Below, piece after piece: positions 2 to 30,274 of a DNA stretch of 64,000 nucleotides. The notes below the pieces were generated by a model. That model made no database searches and was not told the origin of the DNA. It saw only the letters and a program-made list of their open reading frames with translations. This DNA comes from Leptolyngbya sp. KIOST-1. GTDB taxonomy: Bacteria > Cyanobacteriota > Cyanobacteriia > Phormidesmidales > Phormidesmidaceae. The position numbers and the translations under genes were made by a program. The stretch is from NCBI RefSeq assembly GCF_000763385.1, contig NZ_JQFA01000005.1, positions 62,001-126,000 of the forward strand. The letters are read 5' to 3'. Every line of letters starts with the position of its first letter. Positions within the stretch are counted from its first letter, which is position 1.

Positions 2-1129
2 GGCGGCGCTACCAGCCACACGGCGATCATTGCGCGATCGCTCAACATCCCCGCCGTAGCCGGAACGGGCGTCGAAATTCTGGATCTACCCGAGGGGGCT
101 ACGGCCATCCTCGACGGCGACGGCGGCCAGCTCTACCCCCACCCCACCGAGGCGGATTTAGCCAAGGCACGGCAGGCTCAGGTAGAACGCGCCCAGCTCC
201 GCGACGTGGAGCAGCAGACCCGCTTCCAGCCCGCCATCACCACCGACGGCCACCGCATTGAAGTGGTGGCCAACATCGGTGGGCCAGCGGAGGCCGCCCC
301 CGCTATCAATGCCGGGGCCGAGGGGGTGGGGCTACTGCGAACGGAATTTCTCTTTCTCAACCGCAGCGCCCCCCCCAGCGAAGAGGAGCAGTACGAGGCC
401 CTGCGCCAGATGACTGACGCGCTCAACGGCCTGCCCCTGATCGTCCGCACCCTGGACATCGGCGGCGACAAGCATGTGCCCTACCTGAACCAGCCCGCCG
501 AGGACAACCCATTCCTGGGCATTCGCGGCCTGCGCCTGTGCCTGGAGCGGACGGATTTGTTTGAGACCCAGCTCCGGGCCATTCTGCGGGCGGCCTGGGG
601 TAGCTACATCCGGGTTATGTTCCCCATGGTGGCCACCCTGGAGGACATTCGCGCCGCCAAGACGGTGCTGGAGTCGGTGCGGGCGGCGACGGATGGCCCC
701 CCGGTGGAAGTCGGCATGATGGTAGAGGTGCCCAGCGCCGTGCTGATGGCGGCGGAGTTTGCCCAGGAGGTGGATTTTTTCTCGGTGGGCACTAACGACC
801 TCACCCAGTACCTGCTGGCGATGGATCGGGGCCACCCCACCCTGGCCAAGCAGGCCGATGCCCTGCACCCGGCTGTCCTGCGGGCGATCGCCCAGACCGT
901 CCAGGGCGCGGAGCGCTCCGGCAAATGGGTGGGCGTCTGCGGCGGCCTGGCGGGCGACCCCCAGGGGGCGGCCATTCTCGCCGGGCTAGGGGTGAAGGAA
1001 CTCAGCATGGATATCCCCAGCATTCCCAAGGTGAAGGCGCGGCTGCGGGGAGCCTCGATGAAGCAGATGCGGCGGTTGGCCCAACGCGCTCTAACCTGCC
1101 GCACCGCCGAGGAGGTGCGCGCCCTATGA
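2..1129 (+). CDS. PTS enzyme I, C-terminal part (start outside window)
   Basis: These are the last 375 residues of phosphoenolpyruvate-protein phosphotransferase, open from the first base of the window. Enzyme I takes phosphate from PEP onto a histidine and hands it to HPr in the cytoplasm. The first visible residues, GGATSHTAIIAR, are the phosphohistidine signature, with the active His sixth. The PEP-binding barrel follows with GLLRTEFLFL, LDIGGDK, GIRGLRLCL, FFSVGTNDLTQY and VCGGLAGDP, so the visible active site looks intact. The stop overlaps the fruK start by ATGA, which indicates translational coupling. In fructose systems this domain is often the end of an IIA-HPr-EI fusion; whether that holds here cannot be seen. 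Confidence 0.95.
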   Translation, partial: GGATSHTAIIARSLNIPAVAGTGVEILDLPEGATAILDGDGGQLYPHPTEADLAKARQAQVERAQLRDVEQQTRFQPAITTDGHRIEVVANIGGPAEAAPAINAGAEGVGLLRTEFLFLNRSAPPSEEEQYEALRQMTDALNGLPLIVRTLDIGGDKHVPYLNQPAEDNPFLGIRGLRLCLERTDLFETQLRAILRAAWGSYIRVMFPMVATLEDIRAAKTVLESVRAATDGPPVEVGMMVEVPSAVLMAAEFAQEVDFFSVGTNDLTQYLLAMDRGHPTLAKQADALHPAVLRAIAQTVQGAERSGKWVGVCGGLAGDPQGAAILAGLGVKELSMDIPSIPKVKARLRGASMKQMRRLAQRALTCRTAEEVRAL

Positions 1130-26015: not shown

Positions 26016-26062
26016 TGCATCTACCCGGCTCCGTTCAGGTTGCTGAGCGGAGTTGATGCAGG

Positions 26063-26091
26063 GGGCGCGGCAGACTGCCGCGCCCTTTTTT
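26063..26091 (+). terminator. Strong intrinsic terminator of the htrA-type gene
   Basis: GGGCGCGGCAG and its complement CTGCCGCGCCC form a hairpin with a minimal loop, followed by six T, 48 bases after the stop. A clear rho-independent terminator. Confidence 0.92.
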
Positions 26092-26112: not shown

Positions 26113-26469
26113 TCAGGCGGAACTGTTCGGGGCAGCCAGCATTTCAATGTGCAGTTCGGGCATCAGTCGCTTCAGGTTTTTGAGCGATCGCGTCTGCCAG
26201 AGAATGCCCTCAGAGCCGCGAAAGCTGAGCCGGGTGGTGCCGCGATCGCGCACCTTGACCACAAACATCGACAGCATGCTGATGCCCGAACTGTTGAGAA
26301 ACTCTAGCTGGTGCAAGTCAACCGTACAGGCCTCCTCCATCGCCGCCGCCAGCAGCAGATCCATGACGGGTTGGTAAGCCTCGATACCGTCCAGCCGCAG
26401 AAACCCCTCCATTACAACAGTGGCCGTTTCTGCCTGGTAGTACACGCGGTAGTCTTCAGTTTCAATCAT
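26113..26469 (-). CDS. STAS-like regulatory protein (Slr1659-type)
   Basis: A 118-residue protein of STAS/anti-sigma-antagonist type. The segment CTVDLHQLEFLNSSGISMLSMFVVKV is the STAS core; the Ser pair in LNSSGI sits where antagonists are phosphorylated. I name the Synechocystis Slr1659 family from memory. The ATG at 26469 begins conserved sequence. A TTG at 26595 overlaps the upstream stop (TTGA) and would add 42 residues without visible similarity. It is the last gene of a four-gene signalling operon and is the likely output that is switched by phosphorylation. Confidence 0.72.
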   Translation of the reverse strand: MIETEDYRVYYQAETATVVMEGFLRLDGIEAYQPVMDLLLAAAMEEACTVDLHQLEFLNSSGISMLSMFVVKVRDRGTTRLSFRGSEGILWQTRSLKNLKRLMPELHIEMLAAPNSSA

Positions 26470-26591
26470 GGGATCAGGCGCTATGGCAGGGATTGACAGT
26501 GAACTCAGGCCAGGAAAACCGTTGGGGCCAGGCATGGGGGTAACTACACGCTGGGACGTGCCTATTCCCCTACAAAATACCGATGTTTGGG

Positions 26592-27212
26592 TCAAAATGC
26601 TGATTTGAGGTAGAGGTAGGCCTGCACATCCACCTGGGTAAACTCCGGTAGCCCCGGGTTGGGGCTAAATCCCCAGCCAAACTCCACGCCGTAGTCACAC
26701 ATCATGGTCAAGAAGCCCATGTGGGAATCCCCTTCGCCCATCGCCGTCTTTTCCAGCTGTTGGGCAAACAGAGTATCCAGGTCGGCGGCGCTCAAAATGC
26801 TCTGAATAAACCCCATAAACTGCTCGGCCGCTCCTGGCTCAACCAGGTTGAGCGACTGAAATACAATGTAGTCCTCGTAGAGAAACAGCGAAATGCTGAT
26901 CGGCTCGGGGGAGCGATCGGCGTGGTACTTGATCGCATTTTCGAGCAGTTCGTTGGCGATGTAGCTGATCGCTGACTTGACCGTATCCCGCTGCATCAGA
27001 TCCTCATCAGCACCGCCCTTCTGGGGGCTGCCCGGAAAAAAGGTGGCAAAGTAGTCGCCCAGAAAATCGGCCGATAGACCGTAGTTGCGCCACCGCTGCT
27101 GCCGCGCCGAAGCCGAGGGCGAAAAGCAAATGGTGAGGTATTCTTTGCTGTGGTCTAAGCAGGTGGCGAAGCGGCCAAATTGATTAGACACAGAGGCAGA
27201 CGTAGACATCAT
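26592..27212 (-). CDS. Kinase-like ATPase domain protein (Slr1658/SiaB-type)
   Basis: A 206-residue protein. The motif AISYIANELLENAIKYHAD resembles the N box of GHKL ATPases, as in RsbW-type serine kinases. The rest is not strongly conserved, and clear G boxes are not seen. I believe it belongs with Synechocystis Slr1658 and the DUF6272/SiaB kinases; this is a family judgement, not a search. ATG at 27212 is used; a TTG at 27260 overlapping the upstream stop by TTGA is an alternative. Position between the cyclase and STAS genes suggests it phosphorylates the STAS partner. Confidence 0.65.
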   Translation of the reverse strand: MMSTSASVSNQFGRFATCLDHSKEYLTICFSPSASARQQRWRNYGLSADFLGDYFATFFPGSPQKGGADEDLMQRDTVKSAISYIANELLENAIKYHADRSPEPISISLFLYEDYIVFQSLNLVEPGAAEQFMGFIQSILSAADLDTLFAQQLEKTAMGEGDSHMGFLTMMCDYGVEFGWGFSPNPGLPEFTQVDVQAYLYLKSAF

Positions 27213-27256
27213 AAAATCAGTCCCTACAGGGAAAAGCAAACGATGAATAGAGGCGG

Positions 27257-28135
27257 TCAAACACTGGCCGAGAAAATTTGGTTTTTTCCCAGCCGCTTAG
27301 CCTGATACAGCTGCTCGTCGGCCCGTTGCAGCAGATCGGCGCTACTGGTGTGGGGTTGGGGAATGGTGCCAGCGACGCCGATGCTGACTGTAACCACCGG
27401 GGCCACAGTGGAAAACTGATGGGGAATCCGCAACCCTAAGACTTCCCGCTGGATGCGCTGGGCTACCACCTGGGCCTCGGCCAGGGTGGTGCGAGGCAAA
27501 ATAGCCACAAATTCCTCCCCCCCGTAGCGGGCCACCATATCGCTGGCGTGGTGCAGGCAGTGGCGCAGCACAGTGGCCACCTGCACCAGGCAGGTGTCTC
27601 CCGCCAGGTGGCCGTAGGTGTCGTTGTAGATCTTAAAGGCGTCGAGGTCGCAGAGAATTACCGCCAGCGGACTTTGCTCCCGCGCCATGTCCTGCCACTG
27701 CTGCACCAGGTACTCATCAAACCGGCGGCGGTTATGAATTTGGGTCAGCCCGTCGATGTCGGCGCGCACCATGGCAGCGCAAAACTTTTGGTGCCACTGG
27801 GTGTCGAGGGTATCGCCATGCTCCATGATGGTGTGCATGATGATCTCCAGATCGGCCTTTTGGCGCGAGATTAGATCCACCAGGGTTTTGAGGGTGGCCT
27901 CGGCCCGCAGGCGCTCAGCCATCTCGGCCTGGAGGCGCTGGTTGGTGCTGTGCAGATCGGCCTCGATCAGGTCGCCGTGTTCAGCGGTGGTCAGCAGGGC
28001 GATGCGGAGGTCTTCGTTCTCCTGGCGCAGCTGCTGATTGTCCTGGCGCAGCTGCTCGTTTTCCCGAAGCACCTCGGGTAGGTCCAATAGAGACGGGGGA
28101 TCAGTGGACGGGTCGGGGGCCATGGTAGGGGGCAT
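27257..28135 (-). CDS. Diguanylate cyclase with N-terminal coiled coil
   Basis: A 292-residue soluble protein. Residues about 20-105 are heptad-like and Gln/Glu-rich (LRENEQLRQDNQQLRQEN), giving a coiled coil for dimerisation. The GGDEF domain follows with ICDLDAFKIYNDTYGH-type sequence and the active loop RYGGEEF at residues 203-209, so c-di-GMP synthesis is expected. The usual RxxD inhibitory site before the loop is absent (HASD). There is no membrane or sensory domain, so input should come through the coiled coil or from operon partners. ATG at 28135 or 28123 may be used. Confidence 0.9.
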   Translation of the reverse strand: MPPTMAPDPSTDPPSLLDLPEVLRENEQLRQDNQQLRQENEDLRIALLTTAEHGDLIEADLHSTNQRLQAEMAERLRAEATLKTLVDLISRQKADLEIIMHTIMEHGDTLDTQWHQKFCAAMVRADIDGLTQIHNRRRFDEYLVQQWQDMAREQSPLAVILCDLDAFKIYNDTYGHLAGDTCLVQVATVLRHCLHHASDMVARYGGEEFVAILPRTTLAEAQVVAQRIQREVLGLRIPHQFSTVAPVVTVSIGVAGTIPQPHTSSADLLQRADEQLYQAKRLGKNQIFSASV

Positions 28136-28183
28136 CGGTAGGACAAAGGTCAGGGTTGGGGTCAGGGTTTAGGGGCAAACCAA

Positions 28184-30274
28184 CTAGGCGCGGCGTTTGA
28201 GGACCACCAGGGTGATGTCGTCATAGACGGTATGACCTTTCACATGGGCTTGGACATCCTCGATCACGGCGGCCTCGATCGCCTGGGCGGAACCGTTCCA
28301 GGCGCGCTGCACGGTGGCAACCAGGCGATCGAGGCCGTAGAATTCGCGCTGGCTGTTTTCAGCTTCAGTGATGCCGTCGCTGTAGAGCACCACGCCATCG
28401 CCCACCGCCAGGGTCAGGCGGTACTGGGCCACAAAGGGGGTGATGTCCGCAATCAAACCGACGGGGTAGCCCAGGTCCAGGGTGTCGACCCGCTCGGCCC
28501 TGCCGTTGCGCACCACAATCACCTCCTCGTGCTGGCCACTGATGGTGAGCGTTCCCTCGCAATAGTCAAGCAGAGCTAGGGAGAGGTGGCGCTGCGACCC
28601 CATTCGCAGTCGGTTTTGATAGAGCACGGTATTGAGCGCCTGAAAGGCTTTAGCCGGATCGAGGTTGCCCCGCTGTACCCCCAGCGCCTGCAGGGTCCGC
28701 ACGGCGGTTTGAGCCATAATCATCAGCACGCCGCTCTCCAGACCGTGGCCGGTGACATCGCCGATGGCCAGCATAGCCTGGCCCGGGTGCTCGTCGTCCG
28801 ACAAAACGTCGTAGTAGTCGCCCCCCACCTCGGTGGCGGCATCCATAAACCCGGCTATCTCCAGATCGGCGATCGCCGCCAGTTCCTCGGGCCGGGGCAG
28901 CACCATACGCTGAATCTGGCGGGCTACCGACAGTTCGGCACTCATGCGGCTGTTGTCGGCCTGGAGAGCCTGGTTGAGGCTGGTGATTTCGGCGTTGGCG
29001 GCCCGCAGGGCAGCCTCGGCCTGCTGTCGCTGGGCCACCTCCTGGCGCAGCTGGGTCAGGGCCTGCTCCAGCCGCTGCGATTGCTGCTCCAGTTCCCAGC
29101 TGGACTGCACACAGGTAGATACCTCCCCCAGCATCTCCACCACCACCGCCGCTGTGGGAAAGTCCTGATCCTCCATCCCCAGCCAGGGCTGAGGGCGGAT
29201 GGGGCCAGGGCTGGAGTAGACAATCCGAAACTGACCGTCGACCTGGGCCTGCCCCACATGACAGCGCTTTTGCAGGTGGTGGTTGGGCTCGCAGCAGACG
29301 GTGCCACTGGGGGCGGCCCAGCGCTGGTGGTAGGCGGCCTGGCGCACCGGGTCGGTGGCGGTGGTTTGGGCGGCGATGACGGCAGCCCGCCACAGGTAAA
29401 CCTGGGTGTAGGCGGCCTCAATGGAGTCAGTGGTGACGCGATCGCTCCCATAGCGCTGCTTAAAGCGCGCCACAAAGCTCTGGTTGGCAGCGGTTTCCAG
29501 GCTTTGAAAGTAGCTCCAGCAGGCATAGTGTCCGGCCGCTGCCGCGCCAATCTGTCGCAGCTCCAGCTCACCGATGCTGACGGTCAGAATAGGAATGCGA
29601 TCGGGGCTGAGCCCCTGGGCCTGGCACTGGCGATAAAACGGCAGGTTGCTGGCGCCATTCAGGGTGCTGAACACAGCATCGGGCTGGGCCGCCAAAATTG
29701 CTTCAACCGTATCGCTAAAGTCAGTCGCTCCCAGGGGCAGGTAGGTTTCGGCCACAATGCTGCCCTGGCGGTGTTTGAGCTGGCCCTTCAGCACTTTGTG
29801 AGTAACGCGGGGGAACAGGTGGTCAGACCCCAGCAAAAACAGGCGGCGGTAGCCCTGGCCCAGCAACCAGTCCAGGGCTGGCTCCACCTGCTGGTTGAGG
29901 CAGGACCCGGTATAAAACACCCAGGGCGACTGCTCTAAGCCCTCGTAGTGGACGGGGTACCAGAGCAGGCAATTGTGGGCCTCCAGCACCGGCAGCACCG
30001 CCTTGCGACTCATGGAGGTCCAGCCGCCAAAAATTGCGTCTACCCTGTTTACCGTCAGCAGGTGTTGCGCGGCGGCGGCAAAGCCACCGGGGTCGGAGGC
30101 CCCGTCCCCAATCTGGGGGATGATCGGGCGGCCCAGCACCCCTCCAGCCTGGTTGATTTCGTCAATGGCCATCAGAGCGGCGTCTACCAGGGGAGCCTCG
30201 CTGAACGCCATCGGCCCGGTTATAGAGTGGAGAACGCCCACCCGAATGGGGGCAGTCGATGTTGGCTGTGTCAT
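28184..30274 (-). CDS. UrtA-like ligand-binding domain fused to PP2C/SpoIIE phosphatase
   Basis: A 696-residue protein. About residues 8-375 match urea/short-chain-amide binding proteins (IRVGVLHSITGPMAFSEAPL, then INQAGGVLGRPI, FGGWTSMSRKAVLPVLE and LLWYPVHYEG). About 385-470 are a Gln-rich coiled coil. The rest is a PP2C phosphatase of the RsbU/SpoIIE type, with VGGDYYD (483-489), GDVTGHG (505-511), YSDGITEA and VYDDITLVV (Asp685). Metal-binding Asp residues are present. No signal peptide or membrane span exists, so the binding domain should sense a ligand inside the cell. It heads an operon with a diguanylate cyclase, a kinase-like protein and a STAS protein. Confidence 0.88.
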   Translation of the reverse strand: MTQPTSTAPIRVGVLHSITGPMAFSEAPLVDAALMAIDEINQAGGVLGRPIIPQIGDGASDPGGFAAAAQHLLTVNRVDAIFGGWTSMSRKAVLPVLEAHNCLLWYPVHYEGLEQSPWVFYTGSCLNQQVEPALDWLLGQGYRRLFLLGSDHLFPRVTHKVLKGQLKHRQGSIVAETYLPLGATDFSDTVEAILAAQPDAVFSTLNGASNLPFYRQCQAQGLSPDRIPILTVSIGELELRQIGAAAAGHYACWSYFQSLETAANQSFVARFKQRYGSDRVTTDSIEAAYTQVYLWRAAVIAAQTTATDPVRQAAYHQRWAAPSGTVCCEPNHHLQKRCHVGQAQVDGQFRIVYSSPGPIRPQPWLGMEDQDFPTAAVVVEMLGEVSTCVQSSWELEQQSQRLEQALTQLRQEVAQRQQAEAALRAANAEITSLNQALQADNSRMSAELSVARQIQRMVLPRPEELAAIADLEIAGFMDAATEVGGDYYDVLSDDEHPGQAMLAIGDVTGHGLESGVLMIMAQTAVRTLQALGVQRGNLDPAKAFQALNTVLYQNRLRMGSQRHLSLALLDYCEGTLTISGQHEEVIVVRNGRAERVDTLDLGYPVGLIADITPFVAQYRLTLAVGDGVVLYSDGITEAENSQREFYGLDRLVATVQRAWNGSAQAIEAAVIEDVQAHVKGHTVYDDITLVVLKRRA

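Follow-up and report, generated by a model that had tools for sequence, protein, structure and literature searches.

The window analysed here is a 64,000-nucleotide stretch of a 6.3-Mb genome from a Nodosilinea-type cyanobacterium (for example, near N. nodulosa PCC 7104), and it contains a tightly packed minus-strand cluster running in the order PP2C, GGDEF, GHKL-like and STAS. Gene calls and Pfam/NCBIfam domains confirmed the position and order of these four genes as proposed in an earlier, sequence-only reading. The first gene (28184..30274) encodes a 696-aa UrtA–PP2C fusion phosphatase that is predicted to be cytosolic (P0001), the second (27257..28135) a 292-aa diguanylate cyclase with a coiled-coil stalk carrying EHGD motifs (P0002), the third (26592..27260) a putative slr1658-family kinase with a GHKL fold (P0003) and the fourth (26113..26595) an slr1659-family STAS protein (P0004); all of these, and the features within them, lie on the minus strand. 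A strong 13-pair hairpin resembling a plus-strand terminator (26060..26088, by pattern match only) lies between the STAS gene and the convergent gene of a trypsin-like protease.

P0001 combines a UrtA/AmiC-type ligand-binding domain (residues 10-367, minus strand 29174..30247) with a SpoIIE/PP2C phosphatase domain (residues 497-694, minus strand 28193..28786), joined by a predicted coiled coil. The binding domain matched Peripla_BP_5 (1e-133) and the UrtA-like model TIGR03407, and aligns to solved UrtA and AmiC; at 449 bits versus a TIGR03407 cut-off of 493, however, P0001 falls below the level of UrtA itself. The phosphatase domain (3e-35) retains its metal-binding Asp motifs GGDYYD, GDVTGHG, SDG and DDIT. 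No membrane helix was found in P0001, in which no 19-residue stretch is sufficiently hydrophobic, and a hidden signal peptide was ruled out because no upstream start codon leaves space for one, bearing out the claim of an input domain without an export signal. AmiC of P. aeruginosa, a regulator of amidase expression with a UrtA-like binding fold (175 bits to P0001), is a protein of its own that acts on AmiR, whereas in P0001 the binding domain is fused to the phosphatase. Many sensors are attached to the PP2C, the UrtA-like input being one among them. Coiled-coil linkers are a known signal route to PP2C domains, and in RsbU/RsbP-type proteins a coiled coil links the sensor to PP2C and dimerises the phosphatase; unlike P0001, these proteins are described with no mention of a UrtA-like input in the relevant passages of that source (PMC12143880).

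The sequence-only reading had described this input as amide- or urea-binding, of which the UrtA/AmiC-type domain stands and urea has become doubtful. The urea pocket is defined from Prochlorococcus UrtA, where Gln144 and Tyr190 hydrogen-bond urea and are important for affinity (PMC10392092). We distinguished fusions encoded in the operon (type A) from those unlinked to it (type B). Type A fusions keep seven of the nine urea-pocket residues; the exceptions are Gln144 and Tyr190, replaced in 6/6 cases by His (in P0001, His109 at 29948..29950 and His152 at 29819..29821, both minus strand), such that two of the four urea-hydrogen-bonding residues have changed, both to His. Urea is therefore an unsafe reading of the ligand, weakened as the plain ligand of P0001 by this pair of histidines, and the residues suggest that the type A input domain may bind something else. 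A rival view of the input only, with urea itself as the signal sensed in the cytosol, draws on the family of the domain, its missing export signal, the seven retained residues and the Gln and Tyr kept in type B fusions and, where the positions are readable, in UrtA–PP2C fusions of other families. Set against the two substitutions in every type A fusion, P0001 included, we consider it doubtful (PMC10392092). Speculatively, type B fusions could feed a urea signal into the same switch in trans.

P0002 is a GGDEF protein (Pfam, 5e-53) whose catalytic domain (residues 125-286, minus strand 27278..27763) has an intact GGEEF active-site motif and HASD at the I-site position. Its helical stalk, at approximately residues 22-120 (minus strand 27776..28072), consists of two strongly conserved repeats that follow the pattern DLxIxLxTTxEHGDxIExxL at a spacing of about 53 residues, with EHGD at residues 52-55 (minus strand 27971..27982) and 105-108 (minus strand 27812..27823). 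The module had no match in Pfam or the PDB, and homology to the SiaD stalk or to any solved structure was rejected on that basis. We regard the tandem EHGD coiled-coil module found here as new and undescribed. The sequence-only reading had pointed to a coiled coil and a lost RxxD inhibitory site; the coil is present and P0002 lacks RxxD, but the loss is lineage-specific, since 51 of 85 coil-GGDEFs retain RxxD, and it was discarded as a hallmark of the system. A single clade of coil-GGDEF catalytic domains was likewise unsupported: the GGDEF-domain tree has 12 label changes, a number far below that for shuffled labels.

The coil, which reads EHGD or, in other clades, EHSD/EHAD, is closely tied to slr1658. 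Of 48 GGDEFs near slr1658, 46 carried it, versus 1 of the 36 GGDEFs of this genome, and slr1658 occurred in 96 of 100 genomes with an EHGD coil (Fisher 2e-52, uncorrected for kinship and with related genomes not independent). Two of the four exceptions are 61% and 69% complete genomes, and one rests on a borderline match. Coil proteins and slr1658 occur together in one family (f23), mostly without linkage. A search covering the whole genomes of the non-cyanobacterial loci placed the best coil match in the kinase locus in 9/10 cases, with a weak match only in the tenth (G394). Other proteins headed by the coil beside kinase/STAS pairs are class III cyclases with PAS domains, histidine kinases, and PAS-only or HAMP proteins. 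Among the PAS-containing class III cyclases, those with an EHGD coil include L080:9380-11254, L083:36-1868, L181:3785-5605 and L182:2933-5626; such genes lie just 3' of the STAS gene, with the coil-GGDEF on the opposite, upstream side.

The cluster had been presented as a candidate undescribed system; its third and fourth proteins belong to named families, and a Slr1658 mutant phenotype has been published. P0003 exceeded the curated slr1658 cut-offs (NF052618, 216 bits versus 200; NF047703, 193 bits versus 100) and matched DUF6272, to which SiaB presumably belongs, only weakly (21.3 bits, cut-off 26.6); 49 of 52 kinase relatives matched DUF6272, at best with 6e-8. In the kinase N-box, NELLEN (residues 103-108, minus strand 26937..26954), the residues N, E, L, E and N do not vary across 52 relatives. 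In our reading of the alignment, a conserved Asn138 occupies the usual position of the GHKL G1-box Asp and, because of this replacement, the putative kinase activity is not assured. An AlphaFold2 model from 52 aligned relatives was confident (mean pLDDT 85), and its closest solved structures were SpoIIAB, RsbW and UsfX, at moderate similarity (TM 0.37/0.54).

P0004 exceeded the cut-off of the slr1659 superfamily (NF047705, 134 bits versus 100), also matched STAS_2 weakly and had no match to the SiaC family PF09345; 14 of its 56 relatives matched Pfam SiaC weakly (best 4e-5). Its model, from 56 aligned relatives, was also confident (mean pLDDT 86), with SiaC as the best PDB match (6kko_C, E 3e-4) and again third (7e6g_E), followed by SpoIIAA/RsbV types, at moderate fold similarity (TM 0.55/0.67). 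The listed starts of both genes are probably too early, with predicted true starts at M17 of the kinase (ATG at 27212) and M43 of the STAS protein (ATG at 26469, giving 118 aa). These later starts are supported by comparison with relatives and by the models, in which the first ~20 residues of the kinase and the first ~40 of the STAS protein are low-confidence. The presumed phosphorylation site of P0004 is an NSSG motif (residues 101-104, minus strand 26284..26295) at the start of helix 102-118, where such a site would be expected. Nearly all loci checked retain the first serine of the motif, and a few have Leu or Ala in place of the second. STAS residue 110 is Met alongside G-type coils (45/46) and Lys/Arg alongside S/A-type (EHSD/EHAD) coils (29/35), a pattern that we rejected as independent proof of contact since it tracks clade.

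Slr1658 and Slr1659 of Synechocystis PCC 6803 belong to the same protein families as P0003 and P0004. As relayed in one later source, Slr1658 is described as a putative two-component gene, and its mutant shows raised pgr5 expression and a poor recovery after iron starvation (Zer et al. 2018, via PMC7555055). Among open-licence papers, we found none on a link between slr1658/slr1659 and c-di-GMP, on an output protein or on the EHGD stalk.

We searched for the same gene set elsewhere and found slr1658 in 137 of 390 class-level genomes. Across the 131 slr1658 loci with gene surroundings read, slr1659 adjoined slr1658 in 118, the pair was accompanied by a co-directional coil-GGDEF in 46 (15 families), and all four genes occurred together in 24 (8 families). 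The sequence-only reading had proposed the four genes as one system, and this co-occurrence check places their association far above chance. All 32 loci with a GGDEF directly upstream fell into one clade of the tree (SH-aLRT 97), which also holds eight loci with the GGDEF downstream and seven without one. Four-gene sets outside the cyanobacteria were found in Thioalkalivibrio, Ectothiorhodospiraceae and Halothiobacillus (Gammaproteobacteria) and in Bryobacteraceae (Acidobacteriota), and in Synechocystis salina a coil-GGDEF adjoins the slr1658/slr1659 pair.

UrtA–PP2C fusions follow the module closely within the genus, where a fusion of type A or B was present in 8/8 genomes with this clade's coil-GGDEF module and 0/20 without it. 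Another family has a fusion with all module components (L163), while in L230 the fusion is split into two open reading frames by a likely frameshift, and in L211 and L129 it accompanies the module with no GGDEF neighbour. Two genomes, G010 (L062) and G025 (L063), retain the cyclase, kinase and STAS genes and lack the neighbouring operon phosphatase; at L063, the gene that usually flanks the phosphatase directly adjoins the cyclase. Type B fusions (L068:8702-10792, also L064-L067, L069 and L070), located elsewhere in the genus, are ~68% identical, have a canonical urea pocket and are confined to genomes in which the coil-GGDEF module is also present. Most lie near an 895-aa gene, which we considered as a second module and rejected; its sequence reads as a ClpB-like chaperone, so no second module is seen there. 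UrtA-like domains were also observed in large open frames of 916-1163 aa at L013, L014 and L015 (G044, G030 and G045), of which that of G044 also has a PP2C match and the other two resemble different sensor proteins. In cyanobacterium SBLK (L302:6619 onward), a UrtA-like-domain gene comes after slr1658-slr1659.

The sequence-only reading had likened the cluster to SiaABCD of Pseudomonas, and this logic is well supported by the conserved gene order, the SiaC and SpoIIAB/RsbW folds and the repeated stalk motif. Both systems encode a PP2C phosphatase, a kinase, a STAS-like protein and a stalked diguanylate cyclase together, and in both the cyclase stalk carries two repeated motifs. Unphosphorylated SiaC binds and activates SiaD, the SiaC phosphosite loop inserting between the helices of a stalk with two similar SiaC-binding motifs, and binding turns pentameric SiaD into an active dimer (PMC8457831). 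The systems differ in that slr1658/slr1659 subfamilies and another phosphatase input are used here, in the spacing of the stalk motifs (~53 residues for EHGD versus 32 for S50/Q54 and S82/Q86 of SiaD) and in the sharing of the EHGD stalk with other enzymes. P0002 likewise scored 141 bits against a cut-off of 290 for the SiaD equivalog NF038266, with the GGDEF domain alone matching. The kinase and STAS models have the folds of a SpoIIAA/SpoIIAB-type pair (SpoIIAB/RsbW and SiaC/SpoIIAA matches, respectively), and the module would work like SiaABCD as a distant relative, not a member. Diguanylate cyclases are also controlled by the STAS partner switches HsbA-HsbD of P. aeruginosa and BgrSTUWV-BgrR of S. 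meliloti, whose components, as described where they are cited, differ from those here (PMC8457831).

Gene content, domains, folds, gene order and the near-exclusive linkage of the coil to the kinase and STAS genes are computed results, and we read them, at a probability of about 0.7, as a partner-switching module that sets c-di-GMP through docking of the STAS protein on the EHGD stalk. We infer the phosphorylation steps, the docking, the sign of control and the ligand as follows. The cytosolic UrtA/AmiC-like domain would bind a small molecule and, via the coiled-coil linker, control the PP2C domain, which would dephosphorylate the STAS protein at its NSSG serine, with the GHKL-fold kinase re-phosphorylating it. 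The STAS protein, most likely when unphosphorylated as in SiaC, would then dock on the two EHGD repeats, fix the GGDEF dimer and turn on c-di-GMP synthesis. This docking is proposed because SiaD has two SiaC-docking stalk motifs and SiaC is the nearest fold to P0004. Counterpoints to the switch are the Asn at the kinase G1-box, the phosphatase-less G010 and G025, the moderate fold matches and the lack of a SiaD-stalk match.

A different arrangement would have the kinase dock on the stalk and hold the cyclase off until dephosphorylated STAS protein pulls it away, in the manner of anti-sigma factor release in SpoIIAA/SpoIIAB-type switches. In the one natural fusion found (L299, a Chromatiales genome), the partner of coil-GGDEF is the kinase rather than STAS, and the structures matched by the kinase fold are partner-sequestering anti-sigma factors; in SiaC–SiaD, the closest functional precedent, it is nevertheless the STAS-like protein that binds the stalk (PMC8457831). 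The fusion also does not tell which part docks where, and we judge kinase docking to be unlikely. That the STAS/kinase pair controls a sigma factor, the classic target of STAS/GHKL pairs, or something else, with the cyclase an independent co-travelling gene, would suit the many slr1658/slr1659 loci with no GGDEF neighbour but is quite improbable, as at such loci the pair is often accompanied by another EHGD/EHSD-coil protein and the coil and slr1658 co-occur genome-wide even when unlinked.

Because the EHGD stalk bears cyclases, histidine kinases and PAS proteins in relatives, it looks like the general receiver of the switch. Whether the EHGD coil is the general docking domain of slr1658/slr1659 switches we consider evenly balanced; one signal would then set both c-di-GMP and a cyclic mononucleotide where the STAS gene is flanked on one side by a coil-GGDEF and on the other by a coil-class III cyclase (for example, L080, L083, L181 and L184). 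If true, the output of Slr1658 in Synechocystis would be an EHGD-coil enzyme. The model proposes a concrete output for slr1658/slr1659, a widespread pair with unexplained mutant effects in cyanobacteria, and names the NSSG motif and EHGD repeats as the putative, likely contact surface. On this model, cyanobacteria and other phyla would join Pseudomonas and Sinorhizobium as groups with diguanylate cyclases under partner-switch control, and a single docking stalk would be seen to serve cyclic-di-nucleotide, cyclic-mononucleotide and histidine-kinase outputs alike. For Nodosilinea, the model further includes a cytosolic sensor of a small molecule, which may link nutrient state to c-di-GMP.
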